Shown one piece after another: positions 1 to 11,282 of a stretch of DNA of 11,469 nt; positions within the stretch are counted from its first letter, which is position 1; each line of letters begins with the position of its first letter. The stretch is from Fidelibacterota bacterium (GTDB taxonomy: Bacteria; Fidelibacterota; Marinisomatia; SCGC-AAA003-L08; D37C17): assembly GCA_002705605.1 (NCBI GenBank), contig PAJD01000018.1:32136-43604 (forward strand), in the 5' to 3' direction. Below the pieces are notes generated by a model that was not told the DNA's origin, ran no database searches, and worked only from the letters and a program-made list of their open reading frames with translations. The translations under genes and the position numbers were made by a program.

Positions 1-1581
1 ATTCAAGATGTTATTTTATTAATTGGTCAAGTTCTAGGTAATACAACTCTAAATGATGAACAACTTGAACAAGCAGATCTTAATAATGATAATGTTATTG
101 ATGTTCTTGATATTGTAAATGTTGTTTCTAAAATATTATATCCTCAAGATCCAGAATGGAATTTAGAAGATAATTGGACAGGAAATGATTCTTATATCTT
201 TATACATTTTGATGCAAATGTTAATACATCAAGCGCATTATGGGGCTCTAATACTAGAGAACAATTATTAACTACATCACCAAATAATGTTCATTATTTT
301 TTCATTTCAAATAGAACTCAATATGAAACTGACATGCTTCAAATGAAAGAAATTTATGATGAAATATTAGAAGATTTTTCTCAAGAAGAACAAAATCACT
401 GGAATAATCATTTACACTTTATAAATGAAAAAACATCTAATCTTAATAATTGGTTAGCAACTGCTTTAACAGGAAAGTTTGCTTTAGCTATTGATAGTTT
501 TCAAAAATTAAGAGAGATTGGCTACCTGGGAAATCCCGCAACATTTTCAGGAACTTATATCCACTATTTAGCTCATGAAGCACTTTATTTTGATTATGAG
601 AATAGTATTTTTTCTGATACTGGAGAAGAATATGATGAAATAACTGTCTTTGAAAGAACGCACTATACAGGTGGATGGGCAGCTAGTATTTCTCAAACAA
701 TTGATATTCCTAGCCAAGAAGAATTATCTTCATATAATAAAATGGAAGTAGAATTATTAAGAGGTTGCCCAGATAGTGATATGAATTATAGTGATGCGGG
801 CTGTGATGATTATGATCGTATTGCAAGATTATACTTATGCGATTTAGATGGAGCAAACTGTTACGAAATTGCAAAATGGATAACTCCATTTGATAGACAA
901 CCTCATTCATTAACTGATATTAGTCCCTTTTTGTCAGTATTAAGAATAAATTCAGGGCAACAAAAAATATTGCGATTTCAAGAATCTGGATGGCCAAATA
1001 GTTTGCTAACAATTAAGCTAAGATTATATAATGGCCAAAATCAAAATGGATATGCACAAGAAATTTACCCTTTATGGAATAATACTGTTCAATTTAATCC
1101 AGACTATTCAGCCAATAGACCTGCTCAAGTTTTTTCAATTCCAGAAAATGCAACAAAGGTTGAATTTGTTTCTTATATAACAGGTCATGGGTGGGGTAGT
1201 GCTGGTTGTTTTAATTGCTGTGAATTTTGTAATTCAAGACATATTTTTTCTATAAATGGTGGCGTATTTGAATTTAATCAATCATTTCCTGATGCTTCAT
1301 CAAATAATCATTGTATGCAACCTGAAACAATTCAATCTACCGGTGTAATTCCAAATCAATATGGAACTTGGGGATATGGAAGGGCAGGATGGTGTCCGGG
1401 AAGAGATGTTACTCCATATATAATGGATATAACTGATTATCTAGCTATTGGCGATGATAATGTTATTGATTATGATGCATGTAGAGTGAGTGGTAATTCT
1501 TGTGTAAATCCACCTACATGTCAAGGAGATGGATATTGCCCAGAAATTGCAATGTCATCATATATAATAATTTATTATTAA
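1..1581 (+). CDS. Secreted PNGase F-like peptide-N-glycosidase with dockerin-like module (5' partial)
   Basis: The frame is open from the first base to the stop at 1579-1581, so this is the last 526 residues of a longer protein; the first in-frame ATG (334) is internal. Residues 1-46 resemble a type I dockerin. The calcium loop starts DLNNDN, with D26, N28, D30, D34 and D37 in EF-hand positions. Residues about 53-220 match no family I recognise. Residues about 223-526 follow PNGase F from Elizabethkingia meningoseptica across both of its beta domains. CDDYD matches CDEWD (D272 = PNGase F D60), FQESGW matches YTETW (E328 = E118), and CCEFC matches CAEWC (E408 = E206). The GTWGYGRAGWCPG block near residue 455 is the family's C-terminal hallmark. 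It should hydrolyse the GlcNAc-asparagine amide bond of N-glycoproteins outside the cytoplasm. Several cysteine pairs fit secretion. No C-terminal sorting domain is visible. Family assignment is strong; substrate is inferred. Confidence 0.88.
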   Translation: MQDVILLIGQVLGNTTLNDEQLEQADLNNDNVIDVLDIVNVVSKILYPQDPEWNLEDNWTGNDSYIFIHFDANVNTSSALWGSNTREQLLTTSPNNVHYFFISNRTQYETDMLQMKEIYDEILEDFSQEEQNHWNNHLHFINEKTSNLNNWLATALTGKFALAIDSFQKLREIGYLGNPATFSGTYIHYLAHEALYFDYENSIFSDTGEEYDEITVFERTHYTGGWAASISQTIDIPSQEELSSYNKMEVELLRGCPDSDMNYSDAGCDDYDRIARLYLCDLDGANCYEIAKWITPFDRQPHSLTDISPFLSVLRINSGQQKILRFQESGWPNSLLTIKLRLYNGQNQNGYAQEIYPLWNNTVQFNPDYSANRPAQVFSIPENATKVEFVSYITGHGWGSAGCFNCCEFCNSRHIFSINGGVFEFNQSFPDASSNNHCMQPETIQSTGVIPNQYGTWGYGRAGWCPGRDVTPYIMDITDYLAIGDDNVIDYDACRVSGNSCVNPPTCQGDGYCPEIAMSSYIIIYY

Positions 1582-1753: not shown

Positions 1754-2719
1754 TTAAATTTCTTTTGAATAATCCAAGCTAAACGGAACGGGTTCAAATC
1801 CTAATTTCTCATTGATTTTATACATTGGATTATTTTCTTCATTATCTGTCCTTACTTCATAAATTCCTTTTTCTATTAACTTTTGAAAGGCTATAATTTT
1901 TAAAGCTGTTGCTATACCCATTCTTCTAAATTTTTTAATAACACCAAGTGAACCTGTCCATGCTTTATGAGGTTCTGCCTTAGGATAATACTCTAAATCA
2001 GTTGATGCTATATATTCATTATCTTTAACAGCAATAATTTCAGCTGCATAATAATTTTTTTCATAGTTATTTTGATCTTTTATAAACTCATTAAATGGCT
2101 CTCTTTCCCTCTTGATGCCTTTTGGCATAGGAATATCTTGACCATATATCCAGCATAATTCTTCTAATTTACGATAATGATTAGGCCAATTTTTCATTTC
2201 ATATTTAGAATCAAATAATTTTATACCCTTTGATTCTAAATTATTAATAAGATTTTTATATTTTGTAAAATCAATTTTTCTTATATCGCAAGAGTACTCT
2301 CTATTAGTTTGGACTAAATTAAATTTTTCTTTAATTAATAGTTTTTCATGCTGTTTATAATTTGGATGATCATATATTGTTGTGTGTAGTTGATTGCAAT
2401 TAAAAAATTTTACTCTATCTAACATTTTATTATATAATAATTTTCTATATCCATTATTATTATAAGCAGGGTCCAAATGCAATGTATAAAAACAAGTTCT
2501 ATTATTTTCATCTCTTCCTTGTGAATAATAAAGGACACCAATTAGTTGATCATTATTATAAAGCAGTAATCTATCTCTGATTAAACTTTTATCTCTTATT
2601 TCCCAATCATTTTTATCATCATCTGGATGATTTATCGAATCATGATTAACAATATTATCAATCCTTGCAAGTTCTTTAAACTCTTTATCAGTTTCAGTAA
2701 AATTTTTAACTGTTATCAT
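1754..2719 (-). CDS. Tandem GNAT-family N-acetyltransferase
   Basis: A 321-residue cytosolic protein made of two GNAT folds. The C-terminal domain (about 170-321) is clear: TGSLGVIKKFRRMGIATALK (255-274) holds the acetyl-CoA pyrophosphate loop (R265, R266, G268, A270). The block NPMYKINEKLGFEP (297-310) is the usual motif B ending. The N-terminal domain (about 1-145) keeps the strand-turn LHLDPAYNNNGYRKLL (80-95) with a weakened R/Q-x-x-G-x-A loop, so it may be structural. Tandem GNATs of this length include mycothiol synthase and many untyped acetyltransferases; the acceptor substrate cannot be read from sequence. ATG at 2717-2719 has no clear ribosome site upstream. The gene ends 8 bases from the terminator and starts 60 bp from the divergent class V aminotransferase gene. 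Confidence 0.85.
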   Translation of the reverse strand: MITVKNFTETDKEFKELARIDNIVNHDSINHPDDDKNDWEIRDKSLIRDRLLLYNNDQLIGVLYYSQGRDENNRTCFYTLHLDPAYNNNGYRKLLYNKMLDRVKFFNCNQLHTTIYDHPNYKQHEKLLIKEKFNLVQTNREYSCDIRKIDFTKYKNLINNLESKGIKLFDSKYEMKNWPNHYRKLEELCWIYGQDIPMPKGIKREREPFNEFIKDQNNYEKNYYAAEIIAVKDNEYIASTDLEYYPKAEPHKAWTGSLGVIKKFRRMGIATALKIIAFQKLIEKGIYEVRTDNEENNPMYKINEKLGFEPVPFSLDYSKEI

Positions 2720-2779
2720 ATCTTATAATAGTAATATTTTATAAATAATTTTTAAATATTTTAAATATAAAGAATATAT
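2720..2779. promoter_or_regulatory. Divergent intergenic region, promoters expected
   Basis: These 60 bases separate the starts of the GNAT gene (-) and the PLP enzyme gene (+), so a promoter for each must lie here or just inside the opposite gene. The stretch is almost all A and T. TATAAT at 2724-2729 (+) and TATAAA at 2740-2745 and 2766-2771 could be -10 boxes, but none has a convincing -35. No operator-like palindrome stands out. Confidence 0.3.
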
Positions 2780-3922
2780 ATGTTTTCAAAGATAAAATCA
2801 CAGTTTATGCTAGATCCTAAAATTATTCATTTAAACCATGGTTCATTTGGAGCAACACCAAAACCTATATTTAATTCGCTTGTAAATTGGCAAAAAAAAT
2901 TAGAACTAAATCCATCAAAACACATATATGATACCTTTGATCTTTTAAAAGAATCAAGAAGCGCATTAGCCAATTACATAAATTGTGATAAAGATGATAT
3001 AGCCTTTATGCCAAATCCTTCAACTGCTCTAAATACAATTATTAAAAGTTTAGATATAAATCCTGGTGATGAGATATTATCATCAAATCATGAATATGAG
3101 ACTTTAGATAGAACCTGGAAATATATATCAAAAAAAACAGGCTCAAAATATATACAAGTTCCTGTTTCCTTACCACTAGAATCAGAAAATGATTTTATTG
3201 AATCTTTGTTAAAACAAATAACAAGTAAAACCAAAATTATTTTTTTAAGCCAGATAACAAGTTCTACTGGTTTAATTTTTCCAATTGAAAAAATATGTCA
3301 AATTGCAAAAGAAAAAAATATTCTATCTATTATAGATGGTGCACATGTCCCAGGACACATTAACCTAGATATTAAAAAATTAAATCCTGATGTCTACACA
3401 GGAGCATGCCATAAATGGATGTGCTCTCCAAAAGGAACTGCATTTTTATATGTAGATAAAAAAATACAAGATATTATAGAACCACTTGTTATTAGCTGGG
3501 GCTATGATTCAGATATGCCTAGTCATTCTCAATTCTTAGATTATCTTCAATGGCAAGGAACTGATGATGTCTCATCCTATTTGACCATACATGATACAAT
3601 TGATTTTTTAAAAAAAAATAATTGGGGAAATGTATCTAAACAATGCAAAAAATTAAATATATGGGCTAGAAATGAAATAAATAAATTATTAAAAATAGAA
3701 CCTATATCAGATGATAGATTTTTAGGTCAAATGAGCAGCATACCAATAAAATCTAACAATATACTAGAAGATCAAATAGAATTTTACTCAAAATATAAAA
3801 TTCAAATTCCTTTTTTCAAATGGCACGATAAAGAATTTTTTAGAATTTCTATTCAGGCATATAACTCAAAAGAAGATATTTTCAAACTTCTTGAAGCTTT
3901 AGATAAAAAATATAATAACTAA
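2780..3922 (+). CDS. Class V aminotransferase-fold PLP enzyme, isopenicillin N epimerase-like
   Basis: A 380-residue cytosolic PLP enzyme of fold type I, the usual length. The N terminus has LNHGSFGATP (18-27), the substrate-loop signature of the CefD-like group. IIDGAHVPGHINLDI (184-198) supplies D186 for the pyridine nitrogen and H189 beside it. ACHKWMCSPKG (209-219) carries the Schiff-base lysine K212. R355 in FFRISIQAYNS fits the carboxylate-binding arginine. Proteins with this pattern are often annotated isopenicillin N epimerase, but the group also includes cysteine lyases/desulfurases and hercynylcysteine sulfoxide lyase (EgtE-like); no beta-lactam or ergothioneine genes are near. The substrate is unknown. 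The ATG follows a weak AAAGAA. The stop overlaps, tail to tail, the stop of the MATE gene at 3919-3922. Confidence 0.87.
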   Translation: MFSKIKSQFMLDPKIIHLNHGSFGATPKPIFNSLVNWQKKLELNPSKHIYDTFDLLKESRSALANYINCDKDDIAFMPNPSTALNTIIKSLDINPGDEILSSNHEYETLDRTWKYISKKTGSKYIQVPVSLPLESENDFIESLLKQITSKTKIIFLSQITSSTGLIFPIEKICQIAKEKNILSIIDGAHVPGHINLDIKKLNPDVYTGACHKWMCSPKGTAFLYVDKKIQDIIEPLVISWGYDSDMPSHSQFLDYLQWQGTDDVSSYLTIHDTIDFLKKNNWGNVSKQCKKLNIWARNEINKLLKIEPISDDRFLGQMSSIPIKSNNILEDQIEFYSKYKIQIPFFKWHDKEFFRISIQAYNSKEDIFKLLEALDKKYNN

Positions 3923-5340
3923 AGAACAATTTTTTTCCATTTTCCACTTTTAAATCTCCATGTTGTATACCCTGCAATAAAGGTAAGATGCATTGCAAAT
4001 GCAATCCATGCTCCCCAATAGCCAAGATTTAAAATAATTCCTAAAATATAGACCATAGGTATAAATAATATCCAATGAGATAATATATCAACAATAGCTA
4101 GAACTTTTGTATCTCCAGCCCCAGTTAAAGCAAACCAGAGAGTGAAGCAAATTGCATCAACAAATTGAATGAATCCAACAAATTTTAATCCAGGAACTGC
4201 AATATTGATTACATTAATATCATTTGTAAAAACAGGAATAATATAATCAGCAAAACAAACAAAACAAATACCCATAAAACCCATCATTAAGAATGAACCT
4301 CTAAGACTTTCATATATTGCAGTTTCAGCCTTTTCTGGATTTTTCTCACCTAAAAATTTTCCTACAAGAGTTGAGCATGCTTGACCAACTCCGATCGCAG
4401 GCATAAAAGATGCATGCATAATTCTAAAAACAACTTGTGTTGCAGCAAGTTCAAAAATCCCAATAATAGCAATAAGCTTATAAAATACAGCTAAGCTAAG
4501 GGCAACGAGTGTTTCTTGTATAGCAACAGGAGAGGCAATTTCAATTTGCCTTTTAAACATTTTTTTATCGAGTGTAATGCGAAGTACATTGAATTTCTTA
4601 ATAATATCACTTTTAAATAAATATATAAAATAATGGATAAAGAGCCATATACATGCAAACATCGTCCCAATTGCTGCACCTTTAACTCCAAGTTCTGGAA
4701 AATGATAAAAAGTCCATAAATTTGATAAAAAAGAAAATGCTGTTCCATCTAAATTTTCAATAATTTTATCTGTTCCAAAAATTAATCCAAAATTTAAATA
4801 TAGGTTTACAAGATTTGATGAAAGGGTTGCTTTCATATGAATTTTAGTTTTTTCAATCCCTGTATAAAAACCTTGAAATACAAAACTTGCATATAGAAAA
4901 AATAAACTCAAAAAATTATAATATGCATAATCAACACTTAAATTAAATGCTTCAACATTATCTACTTTACTTATAAATAAAGCCATAATAGTATCTATAT
5001 AGAAACATGTAATAAAAGTTACAGGTACACCTATTAAAAAAGATAAAAATAGCATATTCCAAAGCGCTGTTCTACACTTCTTATATTCCTTTTCTCCAAG
5101 TCTTCTTGCAACAAAACTTTGAGTTCCTGTTCGAAATGCAATCCCTAGACTAATAAAAGTCCATCCTACCATTCCAGCAATACCAACAGCTGCAATAGCG
5201 CTAGCACCTAAATGACCGATCATAATCAAATCTACAACACCCATTAAAACCCTACTGGTATTACTGATTATAACCGGTAATGCTAAAACAAATATATATT
5301 TAAATAATTTTTTATCCTTTGGAAGGAGAAAAGAAAGCAT
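3919..5340 (-). CDS. MATE family multidrug/Na+ (or H+) antiporter
   Basis: A 473-residue inner-membrane protein with about 12 hydrophobic segments in two similar halves. It fits the NorM-type MATE exporters, which expel cationic or amphipathic compounds using a Na+ or H+ gradient. The first half starts LPVIISNTSRVLMGVVDLIM (21-40); its D37 matches D36 of Vibrio cholerae NorM. The second half starts SPVAIQETL (270-278); E276 matches NorM E255, and D395 in FIQFVDAICF matches D371. A stretch of about 20 extra residues (190-210) lies between segments of the first half. The start codon shares one base with the stop of the upstream receptor gene (TAATG), so the two are probably translationally coupled. 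Its substrate may be linked to the receptor. Its tail overlaps the convergent PLP enzyme gene, leaving no room for a terminator between them. Confidence 0.92.
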   Translation of the reverse strand: MLSFLLPKDKKLFKYIFVLALPVIISNTSRVLMGVVDLIMIGHLGASAIAAVGIAGMVGWTFISLGIAFRTGTQSFVARRLGEKEYKKCRTALWNMLFLSFLIGVPVTFITCFYIDTIMALFISKVDNVEAFNLSVDYAYYNFLSLFFLYASFVFQGFYTGIEKTKIHMKATLSSNLVNLYLNFGLIFGTDKIIENLDGTAFSFLSNLWTFYHFPELGVKGAAIGTMFACIWLFIHYFIYLFKSDIIKKFNVLRITLDKKMFKRQIEIASPVAIQETLVALSLAVFYKLIAIIGIFELAATQVVFRIMHASFMPAIGVGQACSTLVGKFLGEKNPEKAETAIYESLRGSFLMMGFMGICFVCFADYIIPVFTNDINVINIAVPGLKFVGFIQFVDAICFTLWFALTGAGDTKVLAIVDILSHWILFIPMVYILGIILNLGYWGAWIAFAMHLTFIAGYTTWRFKSGKWKKIVL

Positions 5341-7913
5341 TAAAAACCAACATCCATTCCACCGCCTTGATTATATCCTCTTTGTTCTTCTCTCTTATAT
5401 TTTTTCTTTTGGAAATCTCCAAATCTATATTCAAAAGTTATAGATAAATTTCTTTTTCCTCTTCTATATTCCGATTTCAAAAATTCTCTACTGTCAAAAA
5501 TATCATCACCATCTAAATCAATAAGTTGATCAGTAATAATATTAAAACCACCTGTATCAAATAAATCTTTAATCTTTATTGTATAATTAAAACGTTTATT
5601 TGCTTTTTTCTTATAAGATAAATCAAAACGTTGCATTCCTTTTATTTCTCCAGATGATATTGTCATTGGAGATGAAAAATGTGAATAAATTCCTATTTGT
5701 TGACTATTTTTTAATCTAATTGTTGAATTCATCATTCCCCAAAACCCATATTCATTACCTTGCTGATCAGCTTCAATACCATCTAAAATATTATTCCAAT
5801 AATTTCCATTTATCATTAAATCCCAATTAGGCAAAGGCCTTGTCATAAAAGTAAAATCAATCCCTCTATCAACTGATTTTGAAACATTATCCCAAGATAA
5901 AACCATATAATTTGTTTCATCTGAGCTATCATTAGGATCGTTACATGTAGAACCATAACAATAGGTATCTTTATCTCTATCTAGTTTATCTGTTACTCTA
6001 GAGTAGTATAATGAGGCTTTTAAAAAACCTATTGGGATTCTATTTGAATAGCTAATTTCAGATTTATAAATATTTTCTGGTATTAAATAGGGATTCCCCT
6101 GCCTTATAAATCCAGCCTCTGCTTCTTCCAAATCAGGAATAGGATTTAAACTCCAATGTGAAGGCCTTTCTATTCTTCTTCCAAATTCGAATTTAAAATT
6201 ACCTTTACCTTGTGTATCATATAAGAAATATAACGAAGGATATGCTCTTGTATGATTGTAAGTGACATCCAAATCATTTCCTAAATTATTGAGTAAATTA
6301 CCAAATAATGTTTCAGCACAAACTCCATTATCCCAGCTACAAAAACCACTTGTTTCACATGTGCTTTGATCTAAGATAGAGCAATCTTGTTGATTAAAAT
6401 CAATAATAGATTGTTTTTCTTGATCTTCAAAACGAGCTCCAACTTGCATCCCAAATTTTTCTGTAAAATTATATAAAACATTTACATAAGCTGCTGATAT
6501 CGAATTATCGTAATCCCAATTAAAATCCTCTCCTTCTATTACCGAATAATGCTTATCATCCTCAGAATCCTGCTTAAATCCAATCTCATATTTAGCATCT
6601 TCATTAAATTCATTTTCTATTGGAGCAGTATAATCTATTCTAAATATTTTATTTATTCCTTCATCTTGAATTACCTCATCAGTATATCCAGTCCTTATTT
6701 CAGAGCCATTATGATCATCATAGTCAAATTGGATAGAAAAATTCTTTTTATTTTCTCTATCATCTATAAAATAACCTAACCCATAATTAAGGGCTGTACT
6801 TTCTTCATCTTCTATTGTTATAAATGGATTTTCTAAATCTTGATCTATAATAACAGTATTTGTATCTAATCCTTTACTTTGGATATAAGTAAGATCAAAG
6901 GCTAATAGTCCTATATCATTGGGATAATGTTCTATTCCAACTTTTAAATTATTTTTTTCAGGATATTTTTCAGAATACTCTTTGGAACTAGTACTAGAAG
7001 TAACATTATCATCTAAATCATAATATATTGTATTTCTCTCTCCTCTTCCTTGTTTCTGCCTTTGACTTGTGCTATAACTAGAAAATATATTCCAGTTATC
7101 TTTAAACGAGTTAAATGTTCCTGATAAATTTTTACCGTTCCACTCAGAAAGATTTAAATTTAAATTTCCACTTCTTCCAACAAATTCATTTTTGCTAAGA
7201 ACTATATTTATAATTCCTGCCATTCCATCTGGATCAAACTTTGCAGATGGAGTAGTCATTACCTCAACTTTTTCAATCATATTAGCATTTATCATATCAA
7301 CACTTAATTGTGACTTTCGACCATCAATCAATATCGTAACATTAGAGTTTCCTCTAAGAGAAATATTACCATCAGCATCCACTGTAATAGAAGGTAATTT
7401 TTCTAAGACTTCATCAGCAGAACCACCCTCTGCTCTTGCTGTTTCAGCTACTGGGTAGGTTGTTTTTGCAATATCTTCTATAATTGGAGCTAATTTATCT
7501 ACAACAGAGACTCCTTCTAACATGATTGTTTTAGCATTAATTCTAATTTGGCCTATATCTAATTCCATTTTATCTGGGGGTCTAATTACAATACCATCTA
7601 TAATCATATCTTCATATCCAATATATTGAACAACAAGAAAATACTTACCAAACGGGATCTTATCTATTAAAAACAATCCATTCTCATCTGTTATTCCACC
7701 AGCAATTATATCATCAGAGTCTTCTTTAACTATTGATATATTAGCATAAGCCTTTCCCTCTTCAAGCATATTATCAATTACACTACCTCTAATAATACCA
7801 GATGGCTTATATTTACGCTCTTTGTGCTGATGATTATCATGACTATGATCTTCTCCATGAGAGAAAAGAAAGGATAGATTGAAAAGTATAACTATAAATA
7901 ATTTAAATATCAT
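5340..7913 (-). CDS. TonB-dependent receptor-like outer-membrane protein with His-rich N terminus
   Basis: An 857-residue outer-membrane protein. Residues 1-18 form a signal peptide (MIFKLFIVILFNLSFLFS). Next comes a His-rich stretch HGEDHSHDNHQH (19-30). A carboxypeptidase-regulatory-like beta sandwich spans about 39-125 and a plug domain about 133-240 (LRGNSNVTILIDGRKSQLS, 186-204). The barrel from about 250 has the OMP_b-brl_3 signature: RRIERPSHWSLNPIP (579-593) and GNPYLIPENIYKSEISY (606-622). The last strand near 822-832 is followed by a Lys/Arg/Gly-rich tail ending in Phe. An insertion with C511, C519, C525 and C532 lies in a likely surface loop. The His cluster suggests a transition metal (Zn, Cu or Ni), but the ligand is inferred, and no clear TonB box is visible. 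ATG at 7911-7913 has no evident ribosome site. Its stop overlaps the MATE start by one base. Confidence 0.9.
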   Translation of the reverse strand: MIFKLFIVILFNLSFLFSHGEDHSHDNHQHKERKYKPSGIIRGSVIDNMLEEGKAYANISIVKEDSDDIIAGGITDENGLFLIDKIPFGKYFLVVQYIGYEDMIIDGIVIRPPDKMELDIGQIRINAKTIMLEGVSVVDKLAPIIEDIAKTTYPVAETARAEGGSADEVLEKLPSITVDADGNISLRGNSNVTILIDGRKSQLSVDMINANMIEKVEVMTTPSAKFDPDGMAGIINIVLSKNEFVGRSGNLNLNLSEWNGKNLSGTFNSFKDNWNIFSSYSTSQRQKQGRGERNTIYYDLDDNVTSSTSSKEYSEKYPEKNNLKVGIEHYPNDIGLLAFDLTYIQSKGLDTNTVIIDQDLENPFITIEDEESTALNYGLGYFIDDRENKKNFSIQFDYDDHNGSEIRTGYTDEVIQDEGINKIFRIDYTAPIENEFNEDAKYEIGFKQDSEDDKHYSVIEGEDFNWDYDNSISAAYVNVLYNFTEKFGMQVGARFEDQEKQSIIDFNQQDCSILDQSTCETSGFCSWDNGVCAETLFGNLLNNLGNDLDVTYNHTRAYPSLYFLYDTQGKGNFKFEFGRRIERPSHWSLNPIPDLEEAEAGFIRQGNPYLIPENIYKSEISYSNRIPIGFLKASLYYSRVTDKLDRDKDTYCYGSTCNDPNDSSDETNYMVLSWDNVSKSVDRGIDFTFMTRPLPNWDLMINGNYWNNILDGIEADQQGNEYGFWGMMNSTIRLKNSQQIGIYSHFSSPMTISSGEIKGMQRFDLSYKKKANKRFNYTIKIKDLFDTGGFNIITDQLIDLDGDDIFDSREFLKSEYRRGKRNLSITFEYRFGDFQKKKYKREEQRGYNQGGGMDVGF

Positions 7914-7960: not shown

Positions 7961-9217
7961 CTATATATAAATTTTCAATAAATCGTTCCACCTTGTTGTA
8001 TAACATGGAGATAAACGTTCTTGCTTTAATTTCCATTTCCTAGAATATCCTTGCGAGGCATATCTGATACTATCTCGCCCCATTTTTTTATTAATAGAAT
8101 CTATGGTATTCATCATAATTTTACTTTTTTGACGATTTTTTGTATCAAACATATCACATTGAACATGATGCGTTGGAATAATTCCACTTAAAACAACTCC
8201 TGCTTTTTTATAATAATATCCTTTTTTATATATTTTTTTAAGTACACTTAAAATATAGTTTAACATCTCCTCCGTATCATCAGTATAAACGGGGAATTGT
8301 ATTGTTCTATAAATAATATTTTGCTTTAAATCTTTTCTAAAAGGATTAGTCATAATAAAAATATGTGCAATTTTAGCTGAACAAAACTGAGCTCTTAGTT
8401 TTTCTGCACATCGTGTTGTATACATTGCAATTGATGACTCTAAGTCAGCATAAGATGCAACCATTTTACCAAATGTTCTTGATGTGCATATACTCTTTTT
8501 ACCAACATTTAAATTATTAATTTTATCACATGAAATACCCCTTAATTCTTTAACCATTCTTTCTGAAACGACAGATAAATTTGAACGAATCCACCTTAAA
8601 TCACAATTTTTTAATTGTTTTGCTGATTTAATACCATATCTATTTAAAAAAACTTTAGTCTTAGATCCTACTCCCCATATTTTTTCAATAGGTATATCTT
8701 TTAATAAATAATCATAATTATTATTTGAAATTAAAAAAACACCATTTGTGCTATTATTTTTAGCTAGATAATTTGCAACTTTAGATAAAGTCTTAGTTTT
8801 AGCTATACCAATAGATACTGGAATTCCAGTACATTGTAATACTTTTTTTCTAATATTTTTTCCAACTTCTAATAAATCATCACTTTTAAATTCACTAAGA
8901 TCTAAGAAAGCTTCATCAATAGAATAAATTTCAATATAAGGAATAATATCTGCAACAATATTCATAACTCTTTGTGATATATCTCCATACAAAGCAAAAT
9001 TAGTTGAAAAAATTTCAATATTATGTTTTTTAATTAATGAAGAGATTTTAAATGCAGGCACACCCATTTTAATACCTATTTTTTTTGATTCATTAGATCT
9101 TGCAATAACACATCCATCATTATTAGATAAAACAATAATTGGTTTTTTATTTAATTTGGGATTAAAAATTCGCTCACATGAAGCATAAAAATTATTACAA
9201 TCTACAAGGCCATACAT
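7961..9217 (-). CDS. umuC: UmuC-like Y-family DNA polymerase (Pol V catalytic subunit)
   Basis: A 418-residue translesion polymerase, the normal UmuC length. It should copy past DNA lesions at stalled forks in complex with processed UmuD. MYGLVDCNNFYASCERIF (1-18) supplies the metal ligand D6 and the aromatic steric-gate residue Y11. YSIDEAFLDL (98-107) supplies D101 and E102. GIPVSIGIAKTKTLSKVANY (131-150) is the conserved palm/fingers stretch. WGVGSKT (181-187) is the helix-hairpin-helix of the thumb. QCDMFD (353-358) matches the sliding-clamp peptide (QLNLFD in Escherichia coli UmuC). The C-terminal block with GRDSIRYASQGYSRKWKL (380-397) is UmuC-specific. The ATG lies 2 bases after the umuD stop, giving the usual umuDC operon. 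No mutation of a key residue is seen. Confidence 0.96.
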   Translation of the reverse strand: MYGLVDCNNFYASCERIFNPKLNKKPIIVLSNNDGCVIARSNESKKIGIKMGVPAFKISSLIKKHNIEIFSTNFALYGDISQRVMNIVADIIPYIEIYSIDEAFLDLSEFKSDDLLEVGKNIRKKVLQCTGIPVSIGIAKTKTLSKVANYLAKNNSTNGVFLISNNNYDYLLKDIPIEKIWGVGSKTKVFLNRYGIKSAKQLKNCDLRWIRSNLSVVSERMVKELRGISCDKINNLNVGKKSICTSRTFGKMVASYADLESSIAMYTTRCAEKLRAQFCSAKIAHIFIMTNPFRKDLKQNIIYRTIQFPVYTDDTEEMLNYILSVLKKIYKKGYYYKKAGVVLSGIIPTHHVQCDMFDTKNRQKSKIMMNTIDSINKKMGRDSIRYASQGYSRKWKLKQERLSPCYTTRWNDLLKIYI

Positions 9218-9219
9218 AA

Positions 9220-9648
9220 TTATCTACAATGATGTATAGTATGAGTAACAACACCCCATATTTCAAAATCCATTTCATCTGTTATAGGAATCAATCCATA
9301 TTTTTTATTAGCAGGAATTAAAAAAACCTTATTATTCTTTTTGTATAATTTTTTAACTGTAAAATCTCCATTAATAACTGCAATGATGATATCATTTGAT
9401 TTTGGATTTAAAGATTTATCTACAATCATAATATCTCCACTATATATTCCATCGTCAATCATAGAATCACCTTTTACATAGATATAGAATGTAGAGGAAG
9501 GATGTTTAATTAAATATTTATTTAAATCTAATGATATATCTAAGTGATCATCAGCAGGAGAAGGGAACCCCGCTTCAACAGAGGATGAATATAAATCAAT
9601 TGATAATTTAGATTCTCCTGATGCTTTATATATTTTACTTTTATTCAC
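9220..9648 (-). CDS. umuD: UmuD-like S24 peptidase, Pol V accessory subunit
   Basis: A 142-residue LexA/UmuD-type serine peptidase that should cut itself when bound to RecA-DNA filaments and then bind UmuC. AGFPSP (26-31) matches the CGFPSP cleavage site of Escherichia coli UmuD, so cutting is expected between A26 and G27. S62 in GDSMIDDG is the nucleophile and K99 in FTVKKL the general base. Their 37-residue spacing equals that of E. coli (S60, K97). There is no DNA-binding domain, so it is not LexA. The start is GTG at 9646-9648: an in-frame TAA lies directly before it and the N-terminal arm has the right length. A weak GAG lies about 9 bases upstream. The GTG falls inside one arm of the 10-bp inverted repeat described separately. 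Confidence 0.95.
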   Translation of the reverse strand: MNKSKIYKASGESKLSIDLYSSSVEAGFPSPADDHLDISLDLNKYLIKHPSSTFYIYVKGDSMIDDGIYSGDIMIVDKSLNPKSNDIIIAVINGDFTVKKLYKKNNKVFLIPANKKYGLIPITDEMDFEIWGVVTHTIHHCR

Positions 9649-9705: not shown

Positions 9706-10566
9706 CTATTTTTTGGAAAATGAAAACTCAGAACTAACTATACCTAAAACAACTATCATTCCACCAACCCAACCATATATACCTAGAATTTCTCCAGCAA
9801 AAGTGACTGAAAAAAGAGCAGCAAATACTGGTTCTAAACTTAAAAGAAGCGCTGTTTGATTTGCACTTAAAATAGTTTGAGCCCAGACCATAAGCATAAT
9901 TGCAATAAAGGTTGCTAAAAAACCAGTTACGAATATTGCAACAATAAGTCTTTGAGAAATTATTATTTCAGGACTTTCAAATATAAACACACTACCAGAA
10001 GAAAAAAGCGAAACAAACATAACTTGAGATAAAAATAAACGAGATACACTTGATCCTTTAGTAAGATAATAATCCTGCGCAATGACATGGATAGCAAAAG
10101 ATAGAGCACAACCAAATGTTAAAATATCTCCAATATTCACTTCTCCCCCTGAAGGATTTAATAATATATATAAACCTATCGTAGCCAATGAAACAGATAC
10201 CCATATTTTAAAACCAACTTTTTTAATTCTAAAAACTGATAAAATAATAGGTACTAGAATAACGCTAACACTCGTAATAAATGCTGATTTACTAGGTGTT
10301 GTTTGCATTAAACCATAATTTTGAAAGGCATATCCTCCAAATAGACAAAAGCCACAAACAAGCCCTCCTACCATTTCTAAATGATTTATTTTTTTAATAT
10401 TTTTATTTAAATATATAAGACCAATAAAAAAAGCCAACCCAAATCTCAAAGAAGCAAACATATAAGGTGGCGCATCATTCAGGGCTTCTTTGACCATAAC
10501 AAAAGTAATTCCCCATATCATGGTTATAAGAACCATAGATAACTGAGCAAGTCTTTGCTGTGTCAT
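9706..10566 (-). CDS. EamA/DMT superfamily transporter (RhaT/YdcZ-like permease)
   Basis: A 286-residue inner-membrane protein with about ten hydrophobic helices in two EamA repeats, the normal size for the drug/metabolite transporter family. The first repeat begins MVLITMIWGITFVMVKEAL (11-29) and includes PPYMFASLRFGLAF (33-46). The second runs from about 150 and ends with QTALLLSLEPVFAALFSV (237-254), the typical family ending with its LEPV motif, plus a final helix. Such proteins export or import small metabolites; the substrate cannot be told from sequence. ATG at 10564-10566 overlaps the upstream ubiE stop by 4 bases (ATGA), and GGGG lies about 8 bases before it, so coupled translation is likely. 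The promoter for umuDC lies at and just inside its 3' end. Confidence 0.9.
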   Translation of the reverse strand: MTQQRLAQLSMVLITMIWGITFVMVKEALNDAPPYMFASLRFGLAFFIGLIYLNKNIKKINHLEMVGGLVCGFCLFGGYAFQNYGLMQTTPSKSAFITSVSVILVPIILSVFRIKKVGFKIWVSVSLATIGLYILLNPSGGEVNIGDILTFGCALSFAIHVIAQDYYLTKGSSVSRLFLSQVMFVSLFSSGSVFIFESPEIIISQRLIVAIFVTGFLATFIAIMLMVWAQTILSANQTALLLSLEPVFAALFSVTFAGEILGIYGWVGGMIVVLGIVSSEFSFSKK

Positions 10567-11282
10567 GATTTAACCCCTGTATAAATTGTAGCTATACCAA
10601 AAGTATAATCTGAATAAGTAACTTTTTCAAATCCAATAGATTCCATTTTTTTTGAAAGATCTTTTCTACTTAAAAAATAGTCAACAGATTCAGGTAAATA
10701 TAAAAATGCATCTTTTCTAGATAACATAGAACCTAATAAAGGAACAATTTTATTAAAATAAAATCTAAAAAAAGGAATAAACCACTTAACTTTTGGTTTT
10801 GAAAATTCTAAGATTGCTATTTTACCTCCAGGTTTTAATACTCTATAAAACTCAGATAAACCCTTATCATAATCTCCTAAATTTCTAAACCCAAAAGAAA
10901 TAGTTAAACCATTAAAGCTATTATCAGAAAACCCTAAATCTTCAGCATCACCTTGAATAAATGATATGTCCTGATCTTCAAGGCCTTTTTTAGATTGTTT
11001 TAATTTAGCAAGACCAATCATTTTATCTGCTATATCAAGACCAACCAACCTATTTTTAAATCTTTTATACATACTAAAAACAACATCTCCTGTGCCTGTT
11101 GCTATATCAAGCAGATAATCTGACTCATTTAAATTAAATTTTCTAACAAGACTATATCTCCAATACCTATCTACACCAAAACTAGATATGGTATTAAATA
11201 AATCATATCGACCAGAAATATCATTGAACATATTCCTTACATATGTTTTTTTATCTTCTCCCTGATGAATAAATTTTGACAT
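10563..11282 (-). CDS. ubiE: Demethylmenaquinone/ubiquinone C-methyltransferase
   Basis: A 239-residue class I SAM-dependent methyltransferase that adds the ring C-methyl group in the last step of menaquinone synthesis (and of ubiquinone synthesis in organisms that make it). GRYDLFNTISSFGVDRYWR (24-42) is the UbiE/MenG N-terminal signature. LLDIATGTGDV (57-67) is the SAM-binding motif I, and GLDIAD (81-86) supplies the acidic residue for the ribose. GLTISFGFRNL (125-135) and LKPGGKIAILEFSKP (149-163) are the family's post-I and motif III blocks. YLPESV (195-200) is also typical. In an FCB-type bacterium menaquinone is the likelier product, so menG is an equal name. It is the first gene of a two-gene unit with the EamA permease; no other quinone gene is visible. 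The ATG has no clear ribosome site. Confidence 0.95.
   Translation of the reverse strand: MSKFIHQGEDKKTYVRNMFNDISGRYDLFNTISSFGVDRYWRYSLVRKFNLNESDYLLDIATGTGDVVFSMYKRFKNRLVGLDIADKMIGLAKLKQSKKGLEDQDISFIQGDAEDLGFSDNSFNGLTISFGFRNLGDYDKGLSEFYRVLKPGGKIAILEFSKPKVKWFIPFFRFYFNKIVPLLGSMLSRKDAFLYLPESVDYFLSRKDLSKKMESIGFEKVTYSDYTFGIATIYTGVKS

Follow-up and report, generated by a model that had tools for sequence, protein, structure and literature searches.

The locus and its genes

The window (the whole 11,469-nucleotide stretch of DNA that we analysed) lies on contig 15 of a host genome of 1.64 Mb (43 contigs, 92% complete). The closest named relatives of this genome are metagenome bins of Candidatus Neomarinimicrobiota (phylum Fidelibacterota in tree labels), and their isolate codes are presumably marine. 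The lineage is also called Marine Group A or SAR406 (PMC11652737). The features of the locus are as follows.

1..1581, plus strand: open in frame 1; last 526 codons, with the stop, of a gene of 587 codons that spans L002:7954-9717
1..135, plus strand: 3' part of a type I dockerin; the whole module, at contig 32106-32270, begins 30 bases upstream of the window
76-111, plus strand: second F-hand loop of the dockerin, DLNNDNVIDVLD (full-length residues 87-98)
157..558, plus strand: cysteine-free thioredoxin-like (Tx) domain, the portion that follows the dockerin insert; the first strand of the domain is upstream of the window
559..612, plus strand: linker helix between the Tx and PNGase domains (helix 230-247 of the L066 model, window residues 187-204)
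613..1578, plus strand: PNGase F-type catalytic region, from phmmer, profile, model and Foldseek, with Pfam N-glycanase_C at 1123-1566
814..816, plus strand: D272, equivalent to PNGase F D60 and Ngly2 D421; 42/42 aligned rows
982..984, plus strand: E328, the third acid of the original prediction, opposite E118 of PNGase F according to phmmer; not conserved
1186..1188, plus strand: H396, equivalent to Ngly2 H546 (Trp191 in PNGase F); 42/42 aligned rows
1222..1224, plus strand: E408, equivalent to PNGase F E206 and Ngly2 E555; 42/42 aligned rows
1754-7913 and 9706-11282: GNAT acetyltransferase, class V aminotransferase, MATE transporter, TonB-dependent receptor, EamA transporter and UbiE
7961-9648, minus strand: genes for a Y-family polymerase (IMS, DUF4113) and, next to it, an S24 peptidase, which we take to be a UmuCD-type mutagenesis pair

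Recovery of the upstream DNA, a step suggested with the original prediction, gave the full protein: the gene opens 183 bases outside the window, on its upstream side, and its product has 587 amino acids; 12 of the first 61 codons read X owing to ambiguous bases. A signal peptide without a lipobox (MFTRYFKLLLLLLFLNVNALISDEF; both judged by eye) is followed by a complete type I dockerin, a middle domain and the PNGase F-type catalytic region. The predicted union of a PNGase F-fold glycoamidase with a real dockerin is supported by profile searches, by a confident model of an orthologue and by its match to solved structures. The structure model used here is that of this orthologue, L066, which is 88% identical to the window protein (mean pLDDT 88.6, pTM 0.85). 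An NCBIfam search gave no family for the window protein.

None of the neighbours at 1754-7913 and 9706-11282 is a glycan gene. A BD-FAE/carboxylesterase-type protein with a C-terminal dockerin is encoded on the opposite strand, two genes upstream of the N-glycanase and past an EamA-like gene. Among 16 loci compared for synteny, the complete set of neighbours recurs in three, all from the same genus, part of it in four (L072, L082, L086 and L087) and none of it in nine.

The catalytic region retains two acids essential in Ngly2

Pfam N-glycanase_C (PF09113) matched window residues 375-522 with 71.1 bits (cut-off 25), so that the C-terminal half falls, as predicted, above the curated threshold of this family. 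The other profile named in the original prediction, N-glycanase_N (PF09112), went unreported for the window protein at E <= 1, and its matches in four relatives stayed below threshold (15.6-19.6 bits; cut-off 22.4). This profile is probably too narrow, because the Foldseek match to PNGase F covers 341 columns for a chain of 311 aa.

A homologue survey limited to one genome per species yielded 79 loci, 41 of which were aligned with the window protein for conservation (alignment A2, 42 rows); residue numbers of the equivalences were counted from printed alignments. The original prediction held that three catalytic acids are kept. For D272 and E408 this is correct in 42/42 rows, but E328 is retained in only 11/17 rows of the Neomarinimicrobiota clade and in 0/25 of the other aligned rows. 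Zebrafish Ngly2 carries Thr at this position in the phmmer alignment. E328 therefore does not look like a family-wide catalytic acid. Mutation of the equivalents of D272 and E408 abolishes the activity of Ngly2 (PMC12753239).

Other positions of the active site vary. Tyr replaces the active-site Trp59/Trp420 in 17/17 clade rows, and R273 occupies the position of Ngly2 H422, where Arg is common to PNGase F (Arg61). In our alignments, H422 of Ngly2 falls on Arg61 and H546 on Trp191 of PNGase F; the text of PMC12753239 pairs Trp59, Arg61 and Trp191 with Ngly2 residues otherwise than we do. By homology, N-glycanase activity is a well-supported prediction for this protein.

The middle domain is the thioredoxin-like domain of Ngly2

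The likeness to PNGase F that was first proposed is real, but the closest solved structure, both by sequence and by predicted fold, is that of the fish enzyme Ngly2. With the single protein as phmmer query, the best match in the PDB was zebrafish Ngly2 (9lwg, E 1.7e-34, vs. 1e-7 for PNGase F), and a 22-row profile widened the gap (8.9e-90 vs. 7.2e-26). The L066 model, searched with Foldseek, matched 9lwg at 7.0e-35 over 620 columns (TMq 0.68) and PNGase F at about 1.5e-18 over the 341 columns mentioned above. Among the 50 matches listed from a viral fold library, TMq was at most 0.24.

The 22-row profile aligns residues 82-199 and then 345-687 of the Ngly2 chain, skipping 145 chain residues that include the protease-associated (PA) domain as assigned in PMC12753239 (9lwg chain numbering is that of the paper plus 25, by our own count). 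With this jump from 199 to 345 of 9lwg, the Tx domain of the window protein contains no PA domain. A profile of the Tx region alone, built from 20 dockerin-free homologues, found 9lwg at 1e-6 as its sole PDB match under E 0.4. A model of the same region (pLDDT 91.4) matched 9lwg at 9.6e-8, followed by peroxiredoxins and thiol-disulfide oxidoreductases from about 5e-5. At E <= 5, the Tx part of the orthologue matched no Pfam family. Because the translation has no Cys between residues 53 and 255, the Tx domain lacks a redox motif, like that of Ngly2. The middle 180 residues are thus Ngly2's redox-dead Tx domain minus the PA domain; that they form an unknown domain is ruled out by these profile and model matches. 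By analogy with Ngly2, the Tx domain probably has a structural role, as a dimer interface or substrate platform.

The zebrafish acid PNGase Ngly2 (9LWG) has a Tx domain without a redox Cys pair, a linker helix and a PNGase domain in the same order (PMC12753239), and shares the catalytic Asp and Glu and the His at H546 with its bacterial relative, of which it is the top match by sequence and fold. In contrast to Ngly2, the window protein lacks the PA domain, bears a dockerin at a different site of the Tx domain, and has Arg in place of His422 and Tyr in place of Trp420. Ngly2 is lysosomal, whereas the window protein is bacterial and has a signal peptide. PNGase F of Elizabethkingia meningoseptica (1PNF, 1PNG and 1PGS) shares the catalytic fold, D60/E206 and the C-terminal GTW..RAGWCPG block, but its chains of 310-314 aa consist of the PNGase region only, with no Tx domain or dockerin; it has Trp191 where the window protein has H396, and its identity is 19-21% (Foldseek). 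PNGF-II and other PNGases (4R4X, 3KS7, 7ZGN and 9VLA) share the PNGase-fold domain (Foldseek E 3e-14 to 6e-11), with 9-14% identity.

The dockerin is inserted into the Tx domain

The original prediction placed a dockerin-like segment about 180 residues before the enzyme. The dockerin is genuine, but it lies within the Tx domain and is not merely upstream of the catalytic region. Read over the whole frame, Pfam PF00404 reached 29.7 bits against a cut-off of 22.9; in the frame truncated by the window it reached 15.3. The first F-hand loop, DVNLDETIxIQD, spans full-length residues 53-64, with one residue ambiguous. None of 20,000 residue shuffles gave two F-hand loops and 19 gave at least one; together with the whole-frame score, this rules out a chance resemblance.

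In the L066 model, the dockerin forms three helices (44-55, 62-68 and 78-89) at high confidence, flanked by the Tx strands 24-26 and 95-97. Dockerin-free homologues show the site without its insert: in the Tx-region model, strands 13-16 and 19-22 are linked by two residues, and the myxobacterial protein L094 runs LTLPTLDGDWNLAKNW unbroken. The start of the GPYG motif is separated from the next Trp by 23 residues in a Marine Group II archaeon (L117) and by 85-90 in the Neomarinimicrobiota clade, which has therefore gained about 63 residues here. Thus, the dockerin is an insert that replaces one turn of the Tx domain.

The insert is present in 25/25 clade loci with a readable N-terminus (L066-L090) and in 0/43 other readable loci. 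The clade count includes L080, L085 and L090, whose titles give only 'bacterium' or 'FCB group', and L082, which was read by eye, its first loop in L082 and its second in L019 on the same contig. Among the 43 insert-free loci is L123, whose title says Neomarinimicrobiota although its protein belongs to the Marine Group III type; the count leaves out L095. In the tree, 20 clade rows, the window included, form one group at 100/99, which fits a single insertion event.

The Tx-plus-PNGase core is widespread

The core without a dockerin occurs well beyond the clade. We found Tx-plus-PNGase proteins in Neomarinimicrobiota, Myxococcota, ruminant gut bacteria and Marine Group II and III archaea, as well as in bins titled Oligoflexia, Deltaproteobacteria and Proteobacteria. 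The Marine Group II/III loci (L105-L108, L111, L114, L116, L117, L119, L122, L124-L126, L128, L132, L136 and L137) represent a possible N-glycanase of planktonic archaea. The archaeal proteins that we read have TSP3-like calcium-loop repeats upstream, below the Pfam cut-off in L117 and L124; L108 had no Pfam match to such a repeat. Gut loci (UBP6, with titles naming Spirochaetales, yak, buffalo or reindeer) are L097, L098, L100, L102-L104, L109, L110, L112, L113, L115, L118, L129 and L131, and the proteins read from these bins are lipoprotein-like, with an acidic linker (lipobox by eye). Two proteins of Marine Group III type, L123 (G013:C59, titled Neomarinimicrobiota) and L130 (Flammeovirgaceae), are probably mis-binned; G013 was for this reason not counted as N-glycanase-positive. 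Five order mates have a second N-glycanase_C gene, with a frame of 555-619 aa, at L165 (G026:C34:66486-66902), G027:C33, G018:C12, G004:C208 and G021:C140; the one at L165 has no dockerin by eye.

The tree comprised 59 of the 79 loci, the window protein, the zebrafish enzyme and PNGase F. It omits near-duplicates (L068, L071, L074, L079, L084 and L088), contig-end fragments (L092, L093, L096, L120, L133 and L141), the broken frame L091, L095 and L106, and Marine Group III copies (L123, L125, L126, L128 and L130). Three loci of PNGase F type without a Tx domain (L142-L144) grouped with PNGase F at 100/100, and zebrafish Ngly2 fell inside the Tx-type group at 100/100 in two trees, with and without its long-branch neighbour L099. 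The Ngly2 branch is long, and an AU test did not reject its grouping with the PNGase F type (p 0.179). The main evidence of kinship is the shared Tx domain rather than the tree.

Dockerin proteins, cohesins and type IX secretion

Dockerins are abundant in the host genome: 75 places matched at E <= 0.1, 53 of them over the Pfam cut-off alone and 56 when in-frame neighbours are included. Among the best 30 of the 75, 25 dockerins are no more than 7 aa from the frame's end (for one of these, a contig end); for four the distance is about 200 aa and for one it is 44 aa. In four proteins (G000:C12:92527, C34:19283, C30:24820 and C33:10620) the dockerin precedes a C-terminal type IX sorting tail by about 200 aa, whereas most of the proteins examined end in their dockerin. 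We scanned ten of the best 30 for partner domains, several being cut at the locus end; three had a dockerin only, and the partners found were Peptidase_C10, Peptidase_S8, Glyco_hydro_16, Exo_endo_phos, PAD_porph, Beta-lactamase and PGA_cap. For type IX secretion itself, the genome has a SprA match over the cut-off, split across two frames, and 19 sorting tails over the cut-off. No sorting tail matched at the place of the N-glycanase, which could stay periplasmic, as it has neither a lipobox (by eye) nor a sorting tail for crossing the outer membrane.

The cohesin genes that the original prediction had suggested looking for have two candidates in the host genome, each with a single cohesin. L065 encodes a 258-aa protein with one cohesin, near the Pfam cut-off (26.6 vs. 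24.1 bits), and a type IX sorting tail. L064 (G000:C28:8791-9150), on a short contig, encodes a cohesin protein of 179 aa in which a lipobox is seen by eye; none of the six cohesin places in the genus mates G001-G003 corresponds to it, and it may be a contaminant. The host genome, at 92% completeness, showed no multi-cohesin scaffoldin. A genus mate has a 2265-aa protein with one cohesin, and frames with at least two cohesins occur in G005:C36 (same family), G029:C11, G023:C14, G026:C1 and G033:C90. These are possible scaffold proteins for dockerins; larger scaffold-like proteins thus exist in the order, and a single anchor is not general.

We compared the distribution of the three features across 60 genomes. 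Dockerins (counted at E <= 1e-4; counts for the richest genomes are lower bounds, as 88 candidates were scored) numbered 7-69 per genome in the same family, 7-86 in f3, 80 in f5, 38 in f2, 0-2 in f4 and 0-8 elsewhere. L065-type cohesins matched in 31/60 genomes: 23/23 of the same family (weakly in G010 and G011), 5/5 in f3, 1/1 in f5, 0/1 in f2, 0/11 in f4 and 2/19 in the other genomes of the class, both weak. The N-glycanase was present in 20/23, 4/5, 1/1, 0/1 and 0/11 of these families, respectively (G013 excluded), and a protein search of the 19 other class genomes gave no strong match, G043 and G049 being weak at E about 1e-4. Overall, 27/28 genomes with at least ten dockerins have the small cohesin, vs. 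4/32 of the others. Fisher tests on the dockerin, cohesin and N-glycanase tables gave p near 1e-11, which shows only that the three features occur in the same lineages, because the genomes are not independent; positives fall almost wholly in families f1, f3 and f5, and shared ancestry confounds the comparison. There are exceptions: dockerin-rich G023 lacks an L065-type cohesin, weak cohesin matches occur in G052, which has 0 dockerins, and in G054, which has 8, and G009 has 27 dockerins and a cohesin and no N-glycanase.

Proposed function and alternatives

We consider it probable that the protein is a secreted N-glycanase of Ngly2 architecture, docked through its dockerin, that unmasks glycoproteins for docked proteases. 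The enzyme would leave the cytoplasm by Sec export. Its D272/E408 pair would hydrolyse the first GlcNAc-Asn amide bond, freeing the intact glycan and leaving Asp, while H396, shared with Ngly2, and R273, shared with PNGase F, would by homology line the sugar site and the Tx domain would serve as a platform. The dockerin probably binds a cohesin, for which the best candidate is L065, the small cohesin with a type IX sorting tail, and docking would take place on the surface of the cell, next to further dockerin proteins such as the C10 and S8 proteases. GH92 was found in 0/22 genomes searched and GH20 in 1/22, a member of the dockerin-poor family f4. The likely gain is therefore access to protein for docked proteases; the benefit would come from unmasking glycoproteins for proteolysis rather than from harvesting glycans. 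The absence of these two families does not exclude that other glycosidases are present.

A broader proposal, which we advance tentatively and rate well below this one, is a non-cellulosic form of docking. Small cohesins exported by the type IX system would anchor, or carry out piggy-back, dozens of dockerin hydrolases, most of them tail-less, and an animal-type N-glycanase would have been recruited to this set by a single dockerin insertion into its Tx domain.

Cohesin-fold domains can also serve other purposes, and an alternative that we regard as unlikely, yet worth weighing, accepts the N-glycanase and takes the dockerin-like insert as a calcium-stabilised spacer or regulatory module that does not bind cohesin. 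The two cohesin places of the host genome, one perhaps a contaminant, are few against 53 dockerins over the cut-off, and archaeal homologues carry TSP3-like calcium repeats (sub-cut-off) upstream of the same core, so that calcium-binding additions do occur without cohesins. A mere spacer, however, fits poorly with the two-loop anatomy and three confidently predicted helices of a dockerin, with an insert kept in all 25 readable clade loci, and with a small cohesin protein in all but one of the 28 dockerin-rich genomes.

It is improbable that the protein has kept the PNGase F fold and lost its activity, becoming a glycan-binding or otherwise non-hydrolytic protein. The lack of conservation at E328, the Tyr that replaces Trp59/Trp420 throughout the clade rows, and the absence or near absence of GH92 and GH20 in the genomes searched would be consistent with such a loss; however, H396 and the two acids essential in Ngly2 are invariant, and Ngly2 is active although it has Thr at the E328 position (PMC12753239). 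Least probable is a housekeeping role in which the enzyme trims N-glycoproteins of its own cell or of a partner archaeon instead of environmental ones: it would suit the lack of any visible outer-membrane export signal of its own and of neighbours pointing to glycan use, but protease and GH16 proteins of secreted appearance carry the same dockerin type, and the occurrence of homologues in marine archaea and gut bacteria is in keeping with a diet of foreign protein.

Relation to known systems and significance

Dockerin-tagged hydrolases, S8 proteases among them, and a cohesin joined to a type IX tail are also features of cellulosomes and cellulosome-like complexes such as the one proposed for Ca. 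Stygibacter (PMC8542988). Ca. Stygibacter (Cloacimonadota) is described as having dockerin enzymes and a protein with several cohesins and a sorting domain at its C-terminus (same source), which makes it the nearest precedent that we found for the docking part of our proposal. Unlike these systems, the host genome had no multi-cohesin protein that we could find, and the dockerin of the PNGase is internal, not C-terminal. Our literature search did not find dockerin together with PNGase, peptide-N-glycosidase F, Marinimicrobia, SAR406 or Fidelibacterota; for Marinisomatota and Neomarinimicrobiota, covered by a mixed search only, there was no dockerin among the matches listed.

The enzyme family itself is already known. 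The fish acid N-glycanase gene was identified in 2025, and its authors noted that Ngly2 is conserved in bacteria too, particularly aquatic ones, and left its importance there for future work (PMC12753239). Compact Tx-PNGase homologues from marine bacteria, archaea and gut bacteria offer material for testing the roles of the Tx and PA domains, and the determinants of pH optimum can be tested in them as well, given that H396 is common to Ngly2 and R273 to PNGase F. For the organisms themselves, the finding suggests that widespread ocean bacteria attack glycoproteins with a docked set of enzymes.
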